Both the position numbers and the translations under genes were made by a program. A model generated the notes under the pieces. The model did not search any database, had not been told where the DNA came from, and saw only the letters and a program-made list of their open reading frames with translations. Below, piece by piece: positions 265 to 6,735 of a stretch of 6,735 nucleotides of DNA. The stretch's first letter is position 1; each line of letters opens with the position of its first letter. Origin of the DNA: Fusobacteriota bacterium (GTDB taxonomy: Bacteria > Fusobacteriota > Fusobacteriia > JAPLKR01); the NCBI GenBank assembly GCA_026387965.1, contig JAPLKR010000087.1:1-6735 (forward strand), given 5' to 3'.

Positions 265-939
265 TTATATTTTTTTATCACTGATAAGCTCACCATCGGT
301 AAATCGAATGATTCTTTTTGTATGTTCTGCGACACTCATTTCATGAGTTACGATAATAATTGTTTTACTTTCCTTGCTTAGGCTTTCAAAGATATTCATA
401 ATCTCGTTTTCTGATTTACTATCAAGGTTACCTGTAGGTTCATCCGCAAGAATAATACTTGGATTATTTGCTAGTGCCCTTGCTATTGCAACCCTTTGTT
501 TTTGACCACCTGAGATTTCCGAGGGTCGATGATCTATTCTATCTGAAAGTCCTACTTTTTCAAGAAGCTCCTTTGCTTTTACTGTACGTGTATGCTTTTC
601 GATTCCAGCATAAGACATTGGAAGAGCTACATTTTCAAGGAGTGTAAGTTGAGGAAGTAAATTAAAAGATTGAAAAACAAATCCAATTTTATAACGTCTT
701 GCAAAAGCAAGTTCTTTTTCTGTAAGATGAGAAATATCTTTTCCATCGAGTTCATATACGCCATCAGTAAGAGTATCTAAGCACCCTAAAATATTCATTA
801 GAGTACTTTTTCCACTACCAGAGGGCCCCATGATAGCTAAATACTCCCCTTTTTCAATATGAACAGATACGTTTTTTAGAGCTTCAACTTTTACTTCTCC
901 CATAGAGTAAGTTTTATTTAAATTTTTAACAGTTATCAT
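265..939 (-). CDS. MacB-like ABC transporter ATP-binding protein
   Basis: This is a stand-alone nucleotide-binding subunit of the MacB/LolD/FtsE type, which powers FtsX-like permeases by a mechanical cycle on the periplasmic side. I place the start at ATG 939 (224 aa) because GGAG at 946-949 sits 6 nt upstream and the protein then begins MITVKNLNKTY, as usual for the family. A GTG at 951 would add four residues but lies inside that ribosome binding site. Visible motifs: Walker A GPSGSGKST (about 38-46), Q-loop Gln in FVFQSFN (about 90), signature SGGQKQR (143-149), Walker B IILADEP (162-168) followed by TGNLDS, and H-loop His in VTHE (about 199). All catalytic motifs are intact and the length is normal. 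The ribosome binding site lies just past the permease stop (951-953), so the two are probably translationally coupled. E. coli MacB fuses these two parts; here they are separate genes. Confidence 0.93.
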   Translation of the reverse strand: MITVKNLNKTYSMGEVKVEALKNVSVHIEKGEYLAIMGPSGSGKSTLMNILGCLDTLTDGVYELDGKDISHLTEKELAFARRYKIGFVFQSFNLLPQLTLLENVALPMSYAGIEKHTRTVKAKELLEKVGLSDRIDHRPSEISGGQKQRVAIARALANNPSIILADEPTGNLDSKSENEIMNIFESLSKESKTIIIVTHEMSVAEHTKRIIRFTDGELISDKKI

Positions 940-950
940 GATACTCTCCA

Positions 951-2231
951 CTATTCATATCGTAATGCTTCTATAGGATTTAATTTTGATGCTTTTTTTG
1001 CTGGAAAAACCCCAAATACAATACCAATTACAATAGATACAACAACGGATATAATAACCATTTTAATATCTAAAATTGGAGTAATTTGAGTGAATATTCC
1101 CTGGATGAGACTGCCGATATACCCTACGATAATTCCTATAATTCCACCTAAAATTGTAAGAATTACAGCTTCTATTAAAAATTGTACGAGAATCTGTTCA
1201 TTTGTAGCACCAATAGATTTTCGAATTCCAATTTCTTTAGTTCTTTCTGTAACTGCAACAAGCATGATATTCATAACGCCAATACCACCTACAAGAAGAG
1301 AAATAGCAGCAATAAACGAAACAAACATATTCATTTTTTGCATTTGCGCAGATGCACCGCCTGTAAATTGATTTGAGTTGATTATTTTATATGTATCAGG
1401 TGTTGTTTGATGGAATGTAGCAATACTGTTTTTTAGTTGCTGAAGGACTTGTTTTGTGTTTACGTTTGGCTTCAGTTGAACCACTAGAAAGGCAATTCTA
1501 TTATGCCCAGTTATTTGCATGAATTTTTTAGGTTGAAAGTATATGAAATATGTACTCATTCCGCCAGTCATTTGGTTGCTAGAGCTATTATTTACTTTAT
1601 TTAGCAATATTGTTGGATTGGAAAAGACTCCATCAATAGTAAAAGTGTATACCCCTTGATATCCTTCTTGTTGGTCTTGAATGTTTACTGTAATTTGTTG
1701 GCCAATAGAATTATCAGTTCCAAAGAGCTTCTCAGAAAGCAAATTATCTATAACAATAGAGTTTTCATCATTTGGATTATTTTGAAATGCTCGACCATAT
1801 AGAAATTGTATATTATTCATTTGGAAATAACTCGGATCAACAGATGTCATTTGAAAATTATTATTTGTTTGGTATGACATTGGACCACTATTACTCATGA
1901 TTGATATTGCACCTGGATCAATTTGTTGAGTTATACTTACACCTTGTACATTTGGATTTTGAGATATCAATTTTTCATCATTGATTGTAAACATATCGTT
2001 AGATGAAATTCTTAGATTAGGGTTATTAAAATCTGGAGAAATTTGATATGAATTCAATCCCATTCCAGCAAATGCTTTATTAAGCATATACTCTTGCCCA
2101 GCTCCTACAGAGCTGAGCATAATTACCGATCCAATACCAATGATGATTCCAAGCATAGTTAAAGAAGAGCGAAGCTTTGAGCGTAAAATACTCTGAAGAG
2201 CATGAGTTCCTGTTTCTCTAATATCCATCAT
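951..2231 (-). CDS. MacB-like ABC transporter permease (FtsX family)
   Basis: This is the inner-membrane subunit that works with the adjacent ATPase. Topology (426-residue numbering): one N-terminal TM (about 24-45), a large periplasmic domain (about 46-300) with the usual MacB_PCD layout, then three TMs (302-327, 350-375, 389-410). Family landmarks are the N-terminal [19 protein letters not shown] region, [24 protein letters not shown] on the cytoplasmic coupling loop, and the C-terminus [17 protein letters not shown]. The protein is full length with no visible defect. Two adjacent ATGs (2231 and 2228) are possible. AGGTG at 2233-2237 spaces better to 2228, so the true protein may be 425 aa. 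That site overlaps the ancestral stop of the adaptor (2236-2238), which implies translational coupling that the premature stop in the adaptor would disturb. MacB-type permeases push substrates from the periplasm through TolC and do not carry them across the inner membrane. Confidence 0.94.
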
Positions 2232-2235
2232 TCAC

Positions 2236-2379
2236 CTACTGATTCTGATTGTTTTGATTAGCAGATTGAAATACAATTTCTTTTTGTGGAAGTTTAACCC
2301 CTGTTTTAATACTGCTAGAAAGAGTACAGAGTACTTTATCGGTAGCAATAAGACCAGATACTTGAACATAAGATTGTGA
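2236..2379 (-). pseudogene. Detached C-terminal tail of the MacA-like adaptor
   Basis: Immediately after the adaptor's TAA (2380-2382) the same frame stays open for 47 codons to a TAG at 2236-2238. Its first residues, SQSYVQVSGL, continue the preceding QKPVQVGI into the pattern that normally ends MacA/HlyD-type adaptors (VGI..., SYVxV, SGL, then a D-K-V-like segment). It ends in an Asn/Gln-rich tail 4 nt before the first permease ATG. It has no start codon or ribosome binding site of its own, so it is best read as the severed end of the adaptor, not a gene. A single substitution from GAA, CAA or AAA would explain the TAA. Confidence 0.8.
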
Positions 2380-3483
2380 TTATATTCCTACTTGAACTGG
2401 TTTTTGCGCCACAATATTTTGAGAATTTAAAACATAAACAAAATTTTGGCCATTGTTTCCAGGTACAATAGCTGTGGCAGGAACAGTCATAACATTATTT
2501 GCTTGAGCTGTTACAATATTAATCGTAACAGAATAGTTTGGTTTAAGTAAATTTTGAGTGTTATTGAAAGAAATGTCCACTTCTACGTAAGCATTTTGAG
2601 ATTGTCCGCTAGTGCTTGTTTGTGCCATGGCAGCAATAGTAGAAACAGTTCCTTGAAATTGTTGTCCACTGTCACTGATTATTTGTACAGGCATTCCTAC
2701 AGAAATTTGATTGACTTGATAATCAGGTATTTGTGCCTTAATAATCAATTGACTTAAATCTGCTATTTGACATAGTGGTTGAGGATCTTGCATACTTACA
2801 TAATAATCTGGTTGAGCTGTAACAGCTGTAACGACTCCATCCACAGGACTTACTGTTTGCATTACTGTTTGATCAAGAGTAAACTGATCATTTTGAATAG
2901 TCAGTTTTTGTTTTGAAATTAAATCTTGTTGATTTGAAATATCTGATTGTACTTGGTCCAGATTTGTTTGTGCTGAAATATAGTTTGATTGACTAGAATC
3001 TAACGTATCTTGAGAGATGCCGCCAGATTTAAATATAGCTTGATTATTATCGTAATTTTTTTTTGCTATTTTTAAACTTTCTTGAGCTAGTTTTTCCTTC
3101 TGTTGGAAGTTAGTTAGTCCTGATTGGAGACTATTTAAATCATAATTATCAGAAGCAACCGCATTTTTGGCATTGGTTTGAGAAGATGGGCTATATGTTA
3201 TGATAACTTGTCCTTTTTTAACTACATCTCCAACTTTAATAAGTACTTGATTTACTTTCAAAGGAACGCTTACATAGATTGATTGGGTGTCTTTAGCAGC
3301 CACTACTCCATTGGCTTGAACAGATGCAGCGATTGGTTGAGTGATTGGGTTTGTTATGAGTACTTTAAATGGTTGAGATTTATTTAGATGTGTCAATTGG
3401 ATCCCTACGATAATTACAATTATAATAACGATGACTACTGCAAGCCACTTCCATTTTTTCTTAATTACTGCTAGACGTTTCAT
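2380..3483 (-). CDS. MacA-like periplasmic adaptor (HlyD/RND-MFP family), truncated by an in-frame stop
   Basis: This membrane-fusion protein would bridge the MacB-like permease and the TolC-like duct. The start at 3483 has AGGAG at 3490-3494 and overlaps the end of the TolC gene by 23 nt. Domains of the 367-residue product: short cytoplasmic basic N-terminus, single TM anchor (about 13-30), first half-lipoyl motif (about 66-98, with VLIKVGDVVKKGQVI), a Gln/Asn/Ser-rich alpha-helical hairpin (about 105-205), second half-lipoyl motif (about 207-246, SPVDGVVTAV), beta-barrel (about 247-325), and the start of the membrane-proximal domain (VPATAIVPG, FVYVLN). The TAA at 2380-2382 cuts inside that last domain, which contacts MacB in known MacA structures. 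With the 47 in-frame codons that follow, the intact protein would have been about 415 aa. The gene is therefore likely impaired, unless readthrough or a sequencing error accounts for the stop. Confidence 0.9.
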   Translation of the reverse strand: MKRLAVIKKKWKWLAVVIVIIIVIIVGIQLTHLNKSQPFKVLITNPITQPIAASVQANGVVAAKDTQSIYVSVPLKVNQVLIKVGDVVKKGQVIITYSPSSQTNAKNAVASDNYDLNSLQSGLTNFQQKEKLAQESLKIAKKNYDNNQAIFKSGGISQDTLDSSQSNYISAQTNLDQVQSDISNQQDLISKQKLTIQNDQFTLDQTVMQTVSPVDGVVTAVTAQPDYYVSMQDPQPLCQIADLSQLIIKAQIPDYQVNQISVGMPVQIISDSGQQFQGTVSTIAAMAQTSTSGQSQNAYVEVDISFNNTQNLLKPNYSVTINIVTAQANNVMTVPATAIVPGNNGQNFVYVLNSQNIVAQKPVQVGI

Positions 3484-4804
3484 TGGTAACTCCTACACTT
3501 GAAATTGAATTGTTTGGATTATTGGTTTCAGACAGAGTCTCAATACCATATTGAAGTTTTTTCTGTAGAGCAATAACAGCATTTAAAGCAGAATAGTAGC
3601 CTTCTTCTGCTGAGACGGCATCACTAAGAGTTTTTGAATAATCACTATAGGATATCATTCCTCTATTTAATTCATCTTTTTGAACATCTAAATATTTTTT
3701 ATAGTACTCATTGTTTTGTTTAGCATATTTAAGAGTTGATTGATCTTGAGTAAACTCTTTTTGAAGTGAAAAAATTTCTTGCTGTTGCTGTTTTAACATG
3801 TCGTTGTAGGTTAATTGTGTTGCCTGTGTTTGAAGAGCCGCCTCTTTGCTTGTTGCATGAGTTGAGAACATATTCAAAGTAACGTTTAGTGATACTAACC
3901 AGCTTTTATAATAGGTATCGTATCCATATTGAAAATTAACATCTGGTAAATTTTGAATATTATCATAAAGTGAATTTATTTTAGCTTGTTGAATATTAAG
4001 CTGTCCATTTTGAAGACTATATGTATCTACATTATCACAATTTACAGGTGTAGGCGATAGAGCTAACGAATCTACCTCAATATTCTGATTATATGGAATA
4101 TTGAGTAGAAGACATAGTTTTGAAATCCCTACTTGATATTGATTTTCTAAATCAGATTTTTGATTTTTTAAATTTTCGAGATCTAACTGAGATTTTTCTA
4201 AATCTAATGGAGAAACGGCAGTAGTAGTTTGTTTAGACATTGAATCTACTAATGCTACTTGAGCTTTTACTTGAGCGTTAATTACCTTTATTTTACTCTT
4301 TGTTGTTGTTAAACTTGTATAGTCATCAATGTATGATGAAATAGTGTTTATCGAAGAAATTTGGTTGCTATTTTGAGTCTGTTCTTTTGTGATATCAAAG
4401 GTTTGATGATTATACTGAGTAGTTCCATAATATAGAACATCTCTTAAATCTTTTGTAATTCCTATTTGAGATTCATCGATGGTATTAAAATAGTATGAGT
4501 AGCTGTACGTATAGTAGAAATAACTATAATTCAGTGTTGTAGTCGTAGTCTCTGGATCACTAAAAGTAACATTGTTTTGTCTTTGATATTGATTGTTTAA
4601 ATAGAGTGTTCTCCATTGGTCTGTGTAAACACTACTTTGTTGTAGTGTAAGTTGTTGATTGGTGATAGTATTTAATTGTGATTGAGTACTACCAGTTGTT
4701 AAAAGATTAAGTCCCTGTTCAAATGTTAAATTCGATACAGTATCAGAAAATGCAATAGTACTTGATATTAAAAGACCTAAAAGTATTATATGTTTCTTTC
4801 TCAT
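3461..4804 (-). CDS. TolC-family outer membrane efflux protein
   Basis: This is the outer-membrane duct for the export systems in the cluster. The 447-residue product has a Sec signal peptide (MRKK, then a hydrophobic core, cut likely after IAFS at residue 20). The mature N-terminus contains LTFEQGLNLL, the usual opening motif of TolC-type proteins. Two helical repeats are visible. The first has a long Gln/Asn/Leu-rich helix (about 165-235) with the typical SPLDLEKSQLDLENLKNQKSD pattern. The second (about 315-425) repeats the arrangement, ending in a helix with RGMISYSDYSKTLSDAV. A Tyr/Ser/Thr-rich tract at 86-106 and the strand FQYGYDTYYKSWLVSLNVTL (290-309) are the likely membrane beta-strands. 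Length and layout are normal for the family. GGAG at 4813-4816 lies 8 nt before the ATG, and the start overlaps the exporter stop in an ATGA arrangement. Confidence 0.9.
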   Translation of the reverse strand: MRKKHIILLGLLISSTIAFSDTVSNLTFEQGLNLLTTGSTQSQLNTITNQQLTLQQSSVYTDQWRTLYLNNQYQRQNNVTFSDPETTTTTLNYSYFYYTYSYSYYFNTIDESQIGITKDLRDVLYYGTTQYNHQTFDITKEQTQNSNQISSINTISSYIDDYTSLTTTKSKIKVINAQVKAQVALVDSMSKQTTTAVSPLDLEKSQLDLENLKNQKSDLENQYQVGISKLCLLLNIPYNQNIEVDSLALSPTPVNCDNVDTYSLQNGQLNIQQAKINSLYDNIQNLPDVNFQYGYDTYYKSWLVSLNVTLNMFSTHATSKEAALQTQATQLTYNDMLKQQQQEIFSLQKEFTQDQSTLKYAKQNNEYYKKYLDVQKDELNRGMISYSDYSKTLSDAVSAEEGYYSALNAVIALQKKLQYGIETLSETNNPNNSISSVGVTNETSSSN

Positions 4805-6480
4805 TGATTTTTCTCCGAGCTATTTTTATGTAATTCTATCATTTTTTTATCCTCTATTTTATAGATTCGATCCGCATATTTAAGATTTTCATCTCTATGT
4901 GTAATAGAAATAATAGTAGAGTCTTTAAGTTCATTATAGATGTTTTTTAGAATTTCTCTTTCAGTATCCTTATCAAGTCCACTGGTAATTTCATCTAGTA
5001 TGACAAATTTTGGTTTTTGAAGTAGAAGGCGTGTTAGTGCCAGTCTTTGTTTTTGCCCACCAGAAAGATTGCGTCCATTATTTTCAATATGAAAGTCCAA
5101 TCCTTTTTCTTCTACGAAGTTATTTATAGCAGAAAGCTTACAGGCATAAAAAATGTCAGCGTTGGAGTATCTTGTACCTAGTGTAAGATTGTCTCTTAAG
5201 CTGCCTTCGAAAATAAAGGATTCTTGACTCATAATAGAGATGTTTTTTCTATAATCCTTTGTATTAATGGAATTGATATTTAAGCCATTTACTTTGATAC
5301 TATCATTCAAATAGAGTCCTGATATTAGAGATATGAGTGTACTTTTACCACCACCACTCTCTCCTATAATAGTGATTTTATCTCCTGTATGGAGATTTAA
5401 GTTAATATTTTCTAGTATTGGATTTCCTTCTATATATTCAAAATTCATATTCTCAATATTCAATGAATCTATATTTTCAATTGTTGTTTTATCTTTTGTT
5501 TCTACTTGCTTTAAATTTAAGAATTTTTGAAGCCTTTCGCTTGATACCACTAAATCAGTCATGTTGATATCAAAGTTTACAAATGTGCTCAAATTTCCTT
5601 TAAACATACTGGCATATGCAGAGAGAGCGACAAATCCTCCAATGGTTAGTTGATGGCGACAGACTAAATAACCTGCTACTCCAAACAAAAACATTTGCTC
5701 TACATTAAGAATTAGATCATTGATAGCTCCAAAAAACAGATTGATTTTTAAGCTTTTAAAAGTTACTCCAATAAATTTATCATAGCGTTTCAAAAATTGA
5801 AGTTTGAAAAAATGATTTTTAGATATTTTTTGAATATGAGGGAGATTATTGATGATAGATTGAACATAATCAAAAACAATCCCTGTTTTTTCACGAGTAT
5901 CTTTTCCAATGTTTTTAAGTGGGTTAAACCAAATTCTATTATTGATTAGTGTAAACGGTACTGTGATGAATGTAGCTAGTAGAAAAATCCAACTGAGTTT
6001 TACCATAAAAAATATTGAGAGTATAAGGGTGAAAAAATTTAAAACATAGTTTACTAAAGTATTAGTATAGACATTTTGAACTGTTCCGATGTCCATATCA
6101 AAACTTATAAAAAGATCCCCTACATTAACTTTTGATATTTCAGAATGTTCCATATTTATCAATTTTGAAATTAGTTTTTTTCTTAAATTTAAAGAGAGAT
6201 AAGAAGATACGTATGTAACGTAATACTGTTGAAGAAAAGTAAGCACTTTTGAAAAGGCAAAAACGATTAAAATATATGCTGTTAAGTTGATAAATACATG
6301 AATAGTTGGAGATTTAAAAAACACATCAATAGCATATTTGTTAATCAATGGCTGAATCAAATTGACTATTGAAAATAGAAAAAGAATTATTAGAATAACA
6401 AATTGTTTTCCTAAAAATGGTCTCGTATAAGGAAAAAATTGTTTGATGTGAGTGATGACGAGTTTATAGTTCTTTGTCAT
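4801..6480 (-). CDS. ABC exporter, fused permease and ATPase (type IV/ABC_membrane fold)
   Basis: This is a half-size exporter, expected to act as a homodimer in the inner membrane. I choose ATG 6480 (559 aa), because AAGGA lies 5-6 nt upstream. A GTG at 6498 would add six residues but sits in the arm of an inverted repeat and overlaps the ribosome binding site. Six TMs are visible (about 26-46, 61-81, 142-160, 162-179, 248-274, 278-294). The ATPase half has Walker A GESGGGKST (373-381), Q-loop Gln in MSQESF (419), signature LSGGQKQR (472-479), Walker B FVILDE (492-497) and H-loop His in ITHRD (528). All are intact. Only about 25 residues precede TM1, so there is no C39 peptidase domain, and any leader peptide would have to be removed elsewhere. 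Substrate is unknown; the neighbours suggest a ribosomal peptide. A lipid or drug exporter cannot be excluded from sequence alone. Confidence 0.92.
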   Translation of the reverse strand: MTKNYKLVITHIKQFFPYTRPFLGKQFVILIILFLFSIVNLIQPLINKYAIDVFFKSPTIHVFINLTAYILIVFAFSKVLTFLQQYYVTYVSSYLSLNLRKKLISKLINMEHSEISKVNVGDLFISFDMDIGTVQNVYTNTLVNYVLNFFTLILSIFFMVKLSWIFLLATFITVPFTLINNRIWFNPLKNIGKDTREKTGIVFDYVQSIINNLPHIQKISKNHFFKLQFLKRYDKFIGVTFKSLKINLFFGAINDLILNVEQMFLFGVAGYLVCRHQLTIGGFVALSAYASMFKGNLSTFVNFDINMTDLVVSSERLQKFLNLKQVETKDKTTIENIDSLNIENMNFEYIEGNPILENINLNLHTGDKITIIGESGGGKSTLISLISGLYLNDSIKVNGLNINSINTKDYRKNISIMSQESFIFEGSLRDNLTLGTRYSNADIFYACKLSAINNFVEEKGLDFHIENNGRNLSGGQKQRLALTRLLLQKPKFVILDEITSGLDKDTEREILKNIYNELKDSTIISITHRDENLKYADRIYKIEDKKMIELHKNSSEKNQ

Positions 6481-6492
6481 GAGTTCCTTTAA

Positions 6493-6534
6493 AAACACGA
6501 CTTAAATATGTGTTATTATATTTGAGTCGTGTTT
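6493..6534 (-). terminator. 17-bp inverted repeat with T-run, terminator or attenuator upstream of the exporter
   Basis: Arms at 6493-6509 and 6518-6534 (AAACACGACT plus AAATAT, one mismatch at 6503/6524) pair around an 8-nt loop. Read leftward, the hairpin begins about 10 nt after the stop of the cysteine-cluster gene and its 3' arm runs into TTTTT, then AAAGGA, the exporter ribosome binding site. That is the layout of a Rho-independent terminator or attenuator separating the upstream gene from the transport genes. The stem is AT-rich, so efficiency may be modest. The same dyad surrounds a TATAAT, so an operator is an alternative reading. Confidence 0.55.
6515..6520 (-). promoter_or_regulatory. 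Candidate -10 box (TATAAT) for the exporter operon
   Basis: A perfect TATAAT on the minus strand spans the end of the inner repeat arm and the loop. It would start transcription near 6508, about 28 nt before the exporter ATG. I see no good -35 hexamer at 16-18 nt spacing, so it is weak or regulator-dependent if real. AT-rich DNA gives many chance matches. Confidence 0.3.
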
Positions 6535-6544
6535 GAAATTTATT

Positions 6545-6625
6545 TTATTGTTTTTCAGCACAATTAGCTGGACAAAAATTACCACAAGTATCATATTCAT
6601 AACATTTTGAATTTGTTGGATAGGT
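6545..6625 (-). pseudogene. 3' remnant of a cysteine-cluster gene (SPASM-type maturase or Cys-rich precursor), cut by an insertion sequence
   Basis: A leftward frame ends at TAA 6545-6547, about 64 nt before the exporter ATG. Its last ~26 residues contain four Cys (codons at 6602, 6584, 6572 and 6560) spaced C-x5-C-x3-C-x3-C, with the string CGNFCPANC and the end AEKQ. The segment has no ATG, GTG or TTG in frame before the insertion sequence, so the gene must have begun further right and is truncated. C-x5-C-x3-C is the spacing of the terminal iron-sulfur-binding cysteines in SPASM domains, where related maturases read like C-G-G-x-C-P. The usual preceding C-x2 Cys is absent here (Asn at that place). 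The alternative is the core of a cysteine-rich RiPP precursor. I favour the maturase reading slightly. The frame stays open into the insertion sequence, but that part is antisense to its ORF and is not native. The right boundary is approximate. Confidence 0.55.
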
Positions 6626-6735
6626 TATACTAAACTGGACAGTTTTAATAAGACCATGTAAACTAGAACTATAAAATATGGAGGGCACATGGCCGAAAAA
6701 GCAATAAAAAGAAAGAAAAGCACGTATACAGAAGA
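6626..6735 (+). mobile_element. Left end of an insertion sequence, probably IS3 family (partial)
   Basis: Unlike the rest of the window, coding here switches to the plus strand. From about 6626 the sequence carries TATACTAAACTGGACAG, which resembles a terminal inverted repeat, including a subterminal dyad AAACTG-GA-CAGTTT at 6632-6645. About 60 nt later a ribosome binding site and a transposase-like start follow, the usual distance in IS3 elements. The exact end and any target duplication cannot be fixed because the other end lies outside the window. Confidence 0.55.
6689..6735 (+). CDS. Start of an IS3-type OrfA-like transposase (partial)
   Basis: The ATG at 6689-6691 follows GGAGGG at 6680-6685 and opens a frame to the window edge. 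The 15 complete codons give MAEKAIKRKKSTYTE. A basic N-terminus leading into a Y-T-E motif is how many IS3 OrfA helix-turn-helix proteins begin (as in K-Y-T-E-E-F-K). Only the first residues are visible, so the family rests on this short match and on the terminal-repeat-like DNA before it. The gene faces away from the export operon. Confidence 0.5.
   Translation, partial: MAEKAIKRKKSTYTE

Follow-up and report, generated by a model that had tools for sequence, protein, structure and literature searches.

A short cysteine-rich reading frame at one end of a fusobacterial contig very probably encodes the C-terminal core of a precursor peptide whose gene was interrupted by an IS3-like insertion sequence, and the other known parts of the RiPP system to which it would belong lie on a second contig, C75, of the same genome. 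The window analyzed here, 6,735 nucleotides long, is the entire contig C118 of a draft assembly of 141 contigs, and the contig end falls inside the insertion sequence. Most likely, the peptide family to which the remnant belongs has about nine members, and its modifying enzyme is intact on C75. The first-pass annotation preferred to see in this frame the end of a radical SAM/SPASM maturase, and rated a precursor core as less likely. The latter reading is the one backed by the C75 peptides, with respect to cysteine spacing, tail length and a C-x3-CPxxC motif.

On the minus strand, positions 6616-6545 encode TNSKCYEYDTCGNFCPANCAEKQ, which corresponds to 23 codons followed by a stop codon at 6547-6545. 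The cysteine pattern is C-x5-C-x3-C-x3-C and includes CGNFCPANC. The frame, its motifs and its stop were thus as first annotated, but not its length, which had been given as about 26 codons. The left end of the insertion sequence, TGGATAGGTTATACTAAACTGGACAG, cuts the remnant at 6617, and its first 26 bases are found again on four further contigs (C112, C10, C132 and C75); the gene-derived part is therefore limited to 23 codons. As had also been observed, there is no start codon within the remnant. Beyond it, the frame stays free of stops across the insertion sequence up to the edge of the contig, and this stretch includes a GTG at 6688. Profile searches with the 23 residues against Pfam and NCBIfam, and with the 62-codon frame against PHROGs, gave no match. 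A tblastn search of plasmids with the remnant also gave none, and C-x5-CGxFCPA had no other occurrence in 98 Fusobacteriia genomes.

Features of the window, listed from the remnant and its surroundings to the left contig edge, with the observations behind each assignment.
Feature	Coordinates	Strand	Basis
IS3-like element, left end and start of its first ORF (ATG 6689)	6617..6735	+	same end on C112, C10, C132 and C75
3' remnant of a probable Cys-rich precursor peptide gene, 23 codons and stop	6545..6616	-	sequence; spacing, tail length and C-x3-CPxxC in common with C75 precursors
Hairpin between remnant and exporter	6493..6534	-	-15.7 kcal/mol, z -6.45; second search also finds a hairpin
ABC exporter, 559 aa	4801..6480	-	PF00664, PF00005; nearest are two Haliovirga abyssi exporters (37%, 35%)
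TolC-type outer membrane protein	3461..4804	-	PF02321
HlyD/MacA-type adaptor	2236..3483	-	TIGR01730, HlyD_3
MacB-type permease	951..2231	-	PF12704, PF02687
MacB/LolD-type ABC ATPase	265..951	-	PF00005 and NCBIfam matches

On C75, positions 8469-12685 (locus L135) hold a maturase gene together with eight complete Cys-rich peptides of the LKVYG type and a truncated ninth. The intact peptides have an LKVYG-type leader and contain 9-14 Cys in 57-78 residues. C-x3-C is the commonest spacing between their cysteines (44 of 85 gaps), and 3-8 residues follow the last Cys, compared with four in the remnant. C-x3-C-P-x2-C is present in three of them and in the remnant, which accordingly displays the features of the C75 precursor cores, namely C-x3-C as the main spacing, C-x3-CPxxC and a short end past the last Cys. 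Genome-wide, this motif has eight DNA matches, comprising the three C75 peptides, the remnant and four short spurious frames, while the reversed motif used as a control has four matches over the whole genome. Given that the control also returns four, the motif excess is numerically small, and the weight rests on the frame check. No NCBIfam model matches the C75 precursors. A secreted protein with no family match is encoded among the peptide genes (8802-9425).

The enzyme on C75 is an intact radical SAM/SPASM protein of 500 residues (10946-12448, minus strand), and so the earlier proposal that the maturase had been lost does not hold. The CxxxCxxC motif and the SPASM cysteines are present, and its cysteines are invariant in an alignment of three proteins. 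It scores 51.8 bits with PF04055 and 44.8 bits with TIGR04085 (cut-off 27). The best-scoring NCBIfam model is TIGR04463, at 176.5 bits and thus below its cut-off of 525. The Clo7bot model TIGR04334 gives 162.2 bits, also below its cut-off of 600, and the models for the PapB and SCIFF maturases fit less well. By sequence, no solved structure was matched at E <= 0.001, and no relatives were found in viral contigs.

That the remnant is itself a maturase C-terminus, or an unusual Cys-rich tail past such a domain, is very unlikely, although C-x5-C-x3-C is indeed found within SPASM domains. The C-x2-C partner is absent, as Asn stands three residues before the first Cys, where SPASM has Cys. For comparison, we assembled 32 SPASM loci of the class Fusobacteriia (30 fetched, plus those of C75 and H. 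abyssi) and scored 31 of them, leaving out L106, a partial frame. The remnant has eight residues after C-x5-C-x3-C, whereas at least 33 follow C-x2-C-x5-C-x3-C in 31/31 of the SPASM proteins and 0/31 have a Cys four residues past C-x3-C, in a set that was picked for this element and says nothing on maturases without it. SPASM family searches of the source genome returned only the C75 protein and one on contig C97. The missing C-x2-C and the short tail, once suggested to mark a SPASM subgroup, are instead grounds for rejecting SPASM. Some probability is retained for an unusual tail because two related maturases end in Cys-rich tails (CNTCQTCNECN on C75, CEKGCCSCG in Clo7bot), which makes such tails possible in this kind of enzyme, but both are spaced unlike the x3 of the remnant. 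The tail of the C75 maturase also means that a Cys-rich end alone is no proof of a precursor. Further points against a precursor core are the length of only 23 residues, the lack of a profile match and a codon usage that is uninformative, as well as the fact that the 5' end of the remnant is out of view and that we infer the joining of the contigs.

It is highly improbable that the remnant comes from the end of an unrelated Cys protein, such as a ferredoxin-like protein or an unmodified disulfide peptide. C-x5-CGxFCPAxC has 19 matches in the GTDB species collection, and the only one in a credible protein has a ferredoxin-type motif. However, the middle Cys of C-x2-C-x2-C is present in this match and missing from the remnant, and the motif, spacing and exporter-side position of the remnant fit the C75 peptides. 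A cysteine pattern produced by chance in a frame that is no gene is scarcely credible. Such a frame of 23 codons is short, and codon usage did not single it out, but when the 69 coding bases were shuffled 200,000 times, a stop-free frame with at least four Cys arose in 0.019% of trials, and the full spacing in none. Moreover, the frame closes a short distance upstream of the hairpin and the exporter, and resembles peptides encoded elsewhere in the genome.

The idea that the cassette serves a radical-SAM-modified peptide finds support, as related exporters and a related maturase occur in one cluster of Haliovirga abyssi, a member of the class Fusobacteriia. The species of that genome was recognised from its plasmid (99.7%). 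The two best H. abyssi exporters score 393 and 330 bits with that of the window, compared with 196 for the next genome. Its maturase scores 247.5 bits with that of C75, the next being 79, at 36-39% identity (36% over 461 aa), and TIGR04463 is again the best-scoring NCBIfam model. The cluster (L037) contains a TIGR04066 protein, an S8 protease, two Cys peptides, the maturase, an S41 protease, the exporter relative (35%), and adaptor- and TolC-like proteins, which were named from their own sequence and not by family search. The related maturase and exporter, together in this case, and the VYG motif of the leaders, which read VDVYG in the H. abyssi peptides, have counterparts in the window and on C75. 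On the other hand, L037 differs by its longer leaders, by having only two Cys peptides, and by its S8 and S41 proteases and TIGR04066 protein. As judged by sequence likeness, the parts that are on two contigs here have side-by-side relatives in H. abyssi. In a second H. abyssi locus (L036), a small peptide rich in Asp and Gly is followed by a hairpin and then by an exporter. The peptide next to the exporter (6133-6348) has 71 residues with Asp/Gly repeats and no Cys, and no NCBIfam or Pfam match; the proteins on its other side are presumably DUF1611-like.

In the proposed mechanism, the C75 maturase would recognise the short leader and use radical chemistry to modify the Cys-rich core. The product would then leave the two-membrane cell through the ABC exporter, probably together with the adjoining TolC protein and HlyD-type adaptor. 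No peptidase domain was matched in this exporter, and no relatives of it were found in the genome contigs collection. We place its start at the ATG in position 6480, which is preceded by AAAGGA, and not at the GTG in position 6498, inside the hairpin. The hairpin is possibly a leaky terminator or attenuator, a role that we word with caution because its U run on the minus strand is short, and it may keep transcription of the peptide gene above that of the exporter. In the adaptor gene, the frame is interrupted by a TAA at 2382-2380, 47 codons ahead of the next stop. This TAA is read through in the coordinates given here, and points either to gene decay or to an error in the assembly. An ORF cut by the left contig edge (2-262) has a signal-peptide-like start and many Asn, Ser and Thr residues, with no convincing family match.

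Ranthipeptides and SCIFF peptides also have Cys-rich cores that are the products of radical SAM/SPASM enzymes (review PMC8326336), as is predicted for C75. The system appears to be a Clo7bot-/TIGR04463-like RiPP system in Fusobacteriia, and by the cut-off tests it is a member of neither. Clo7bot (TIGR04334), on the Paraclostridium bifermentans plasmid NZ_CP094934.1, likewise has tandem small Cys-rich peptides beside a radical SAM/SPASM maturase whose tail is rich in Cys, and ABC transporter genes nearby. The two maturases are 29% identical. Its annotated peptides contain CFGNCPSNC, which is close to the CGNFCPANC of the remnant. However, the Clo7bot leader is of the MKFIKKP type instead of LKVYG, and the annotation of the plasmid locus includes neither TolC nor HlyD genes, while the cassette in the window has both types. 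The example for TIGR04463 is a Methylomagnum ishizawai maturase beside the Cys-every-fifth peptide CefA, a long protein with Cys mostly at every fifth residue, in contrast to the many short peptides of C75. Neither the name TIGR04463 nor Clo7bot was found in the literature searched.

The chances seem to us evenly balanced that these genes represent a distinct Fusobacteriia RiPP family, with about nine precursors, a leader of only about six conserved residues (MLKVYG), C-x3-C cores of up to 14 Cys, one radical SAM/SPASM enzyme scoring below all the family cut-offs, and a dedicated two-membrane ABC/HlyD/TolC export. A single maturase would seemingly act on about nine Cys-rich substrates that have a minimal leader in common, so that an unreadable scrap of sequence yields a testable system. 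In a 2014 survey of anaerobes (PMC4289311), the four Fusobacteria genomes are listed without any RiPP cluster, and RiPP clusters in Fusobacteriia are therefore of some interest.

Finally, the 5' end of the remnant lies beyond the insertion sequence, and an LKVYG leader on C75 is a candidate for its start. This ninth leader, MLKVYGIKNSK... (8510-8469), runs up to the right end of another insertion sequence. It has an 11-base run, AAATTCAAAAT, in common with the head of the remnant and in the same codon phase, while the other eight C75 peptides have only 5-6 bases in common with that head. A run of this length was reached in about 0.2% of shuffles, a descriptive figure, as the run was spotted before the calculation. 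The repeat is flush with neither end of the insertion sequences, and is therefore not accounted for by a simple target duplication. We lean slightly towards the orphan leader being the 5' half of the remnant's gene, the alternative being a close paralogy of the two. The window and C75 were probably a single locus before insertion sequences broke it up, although this is less certain than the precursor reading. The case illustrates how such elements can spread a cluster over several contigs and make a cassette look orphaned while its enzyme lies elsewhere in the assembly. At seven loci of the same genome, the flanks of the right end of the insertion sequence offered no matching duplication and no fitting truncated gene. 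Two other candidates for the missing half were weighed and set aside, namely the SPASM-like protein on C97 and a radical SAM fragment at one end of C57, which we take to be MiaB-like. The former (L038, 415-2004) is a radical SAM protein whose tail, HACGHCGGCGGHGHS, is rich in Cys, His and Gly, and which matches SPASM weakly. Beside the orphan leader, partial insertion sequences are piled up at 5793-8468 of L135, one of them apparently truncated by another.
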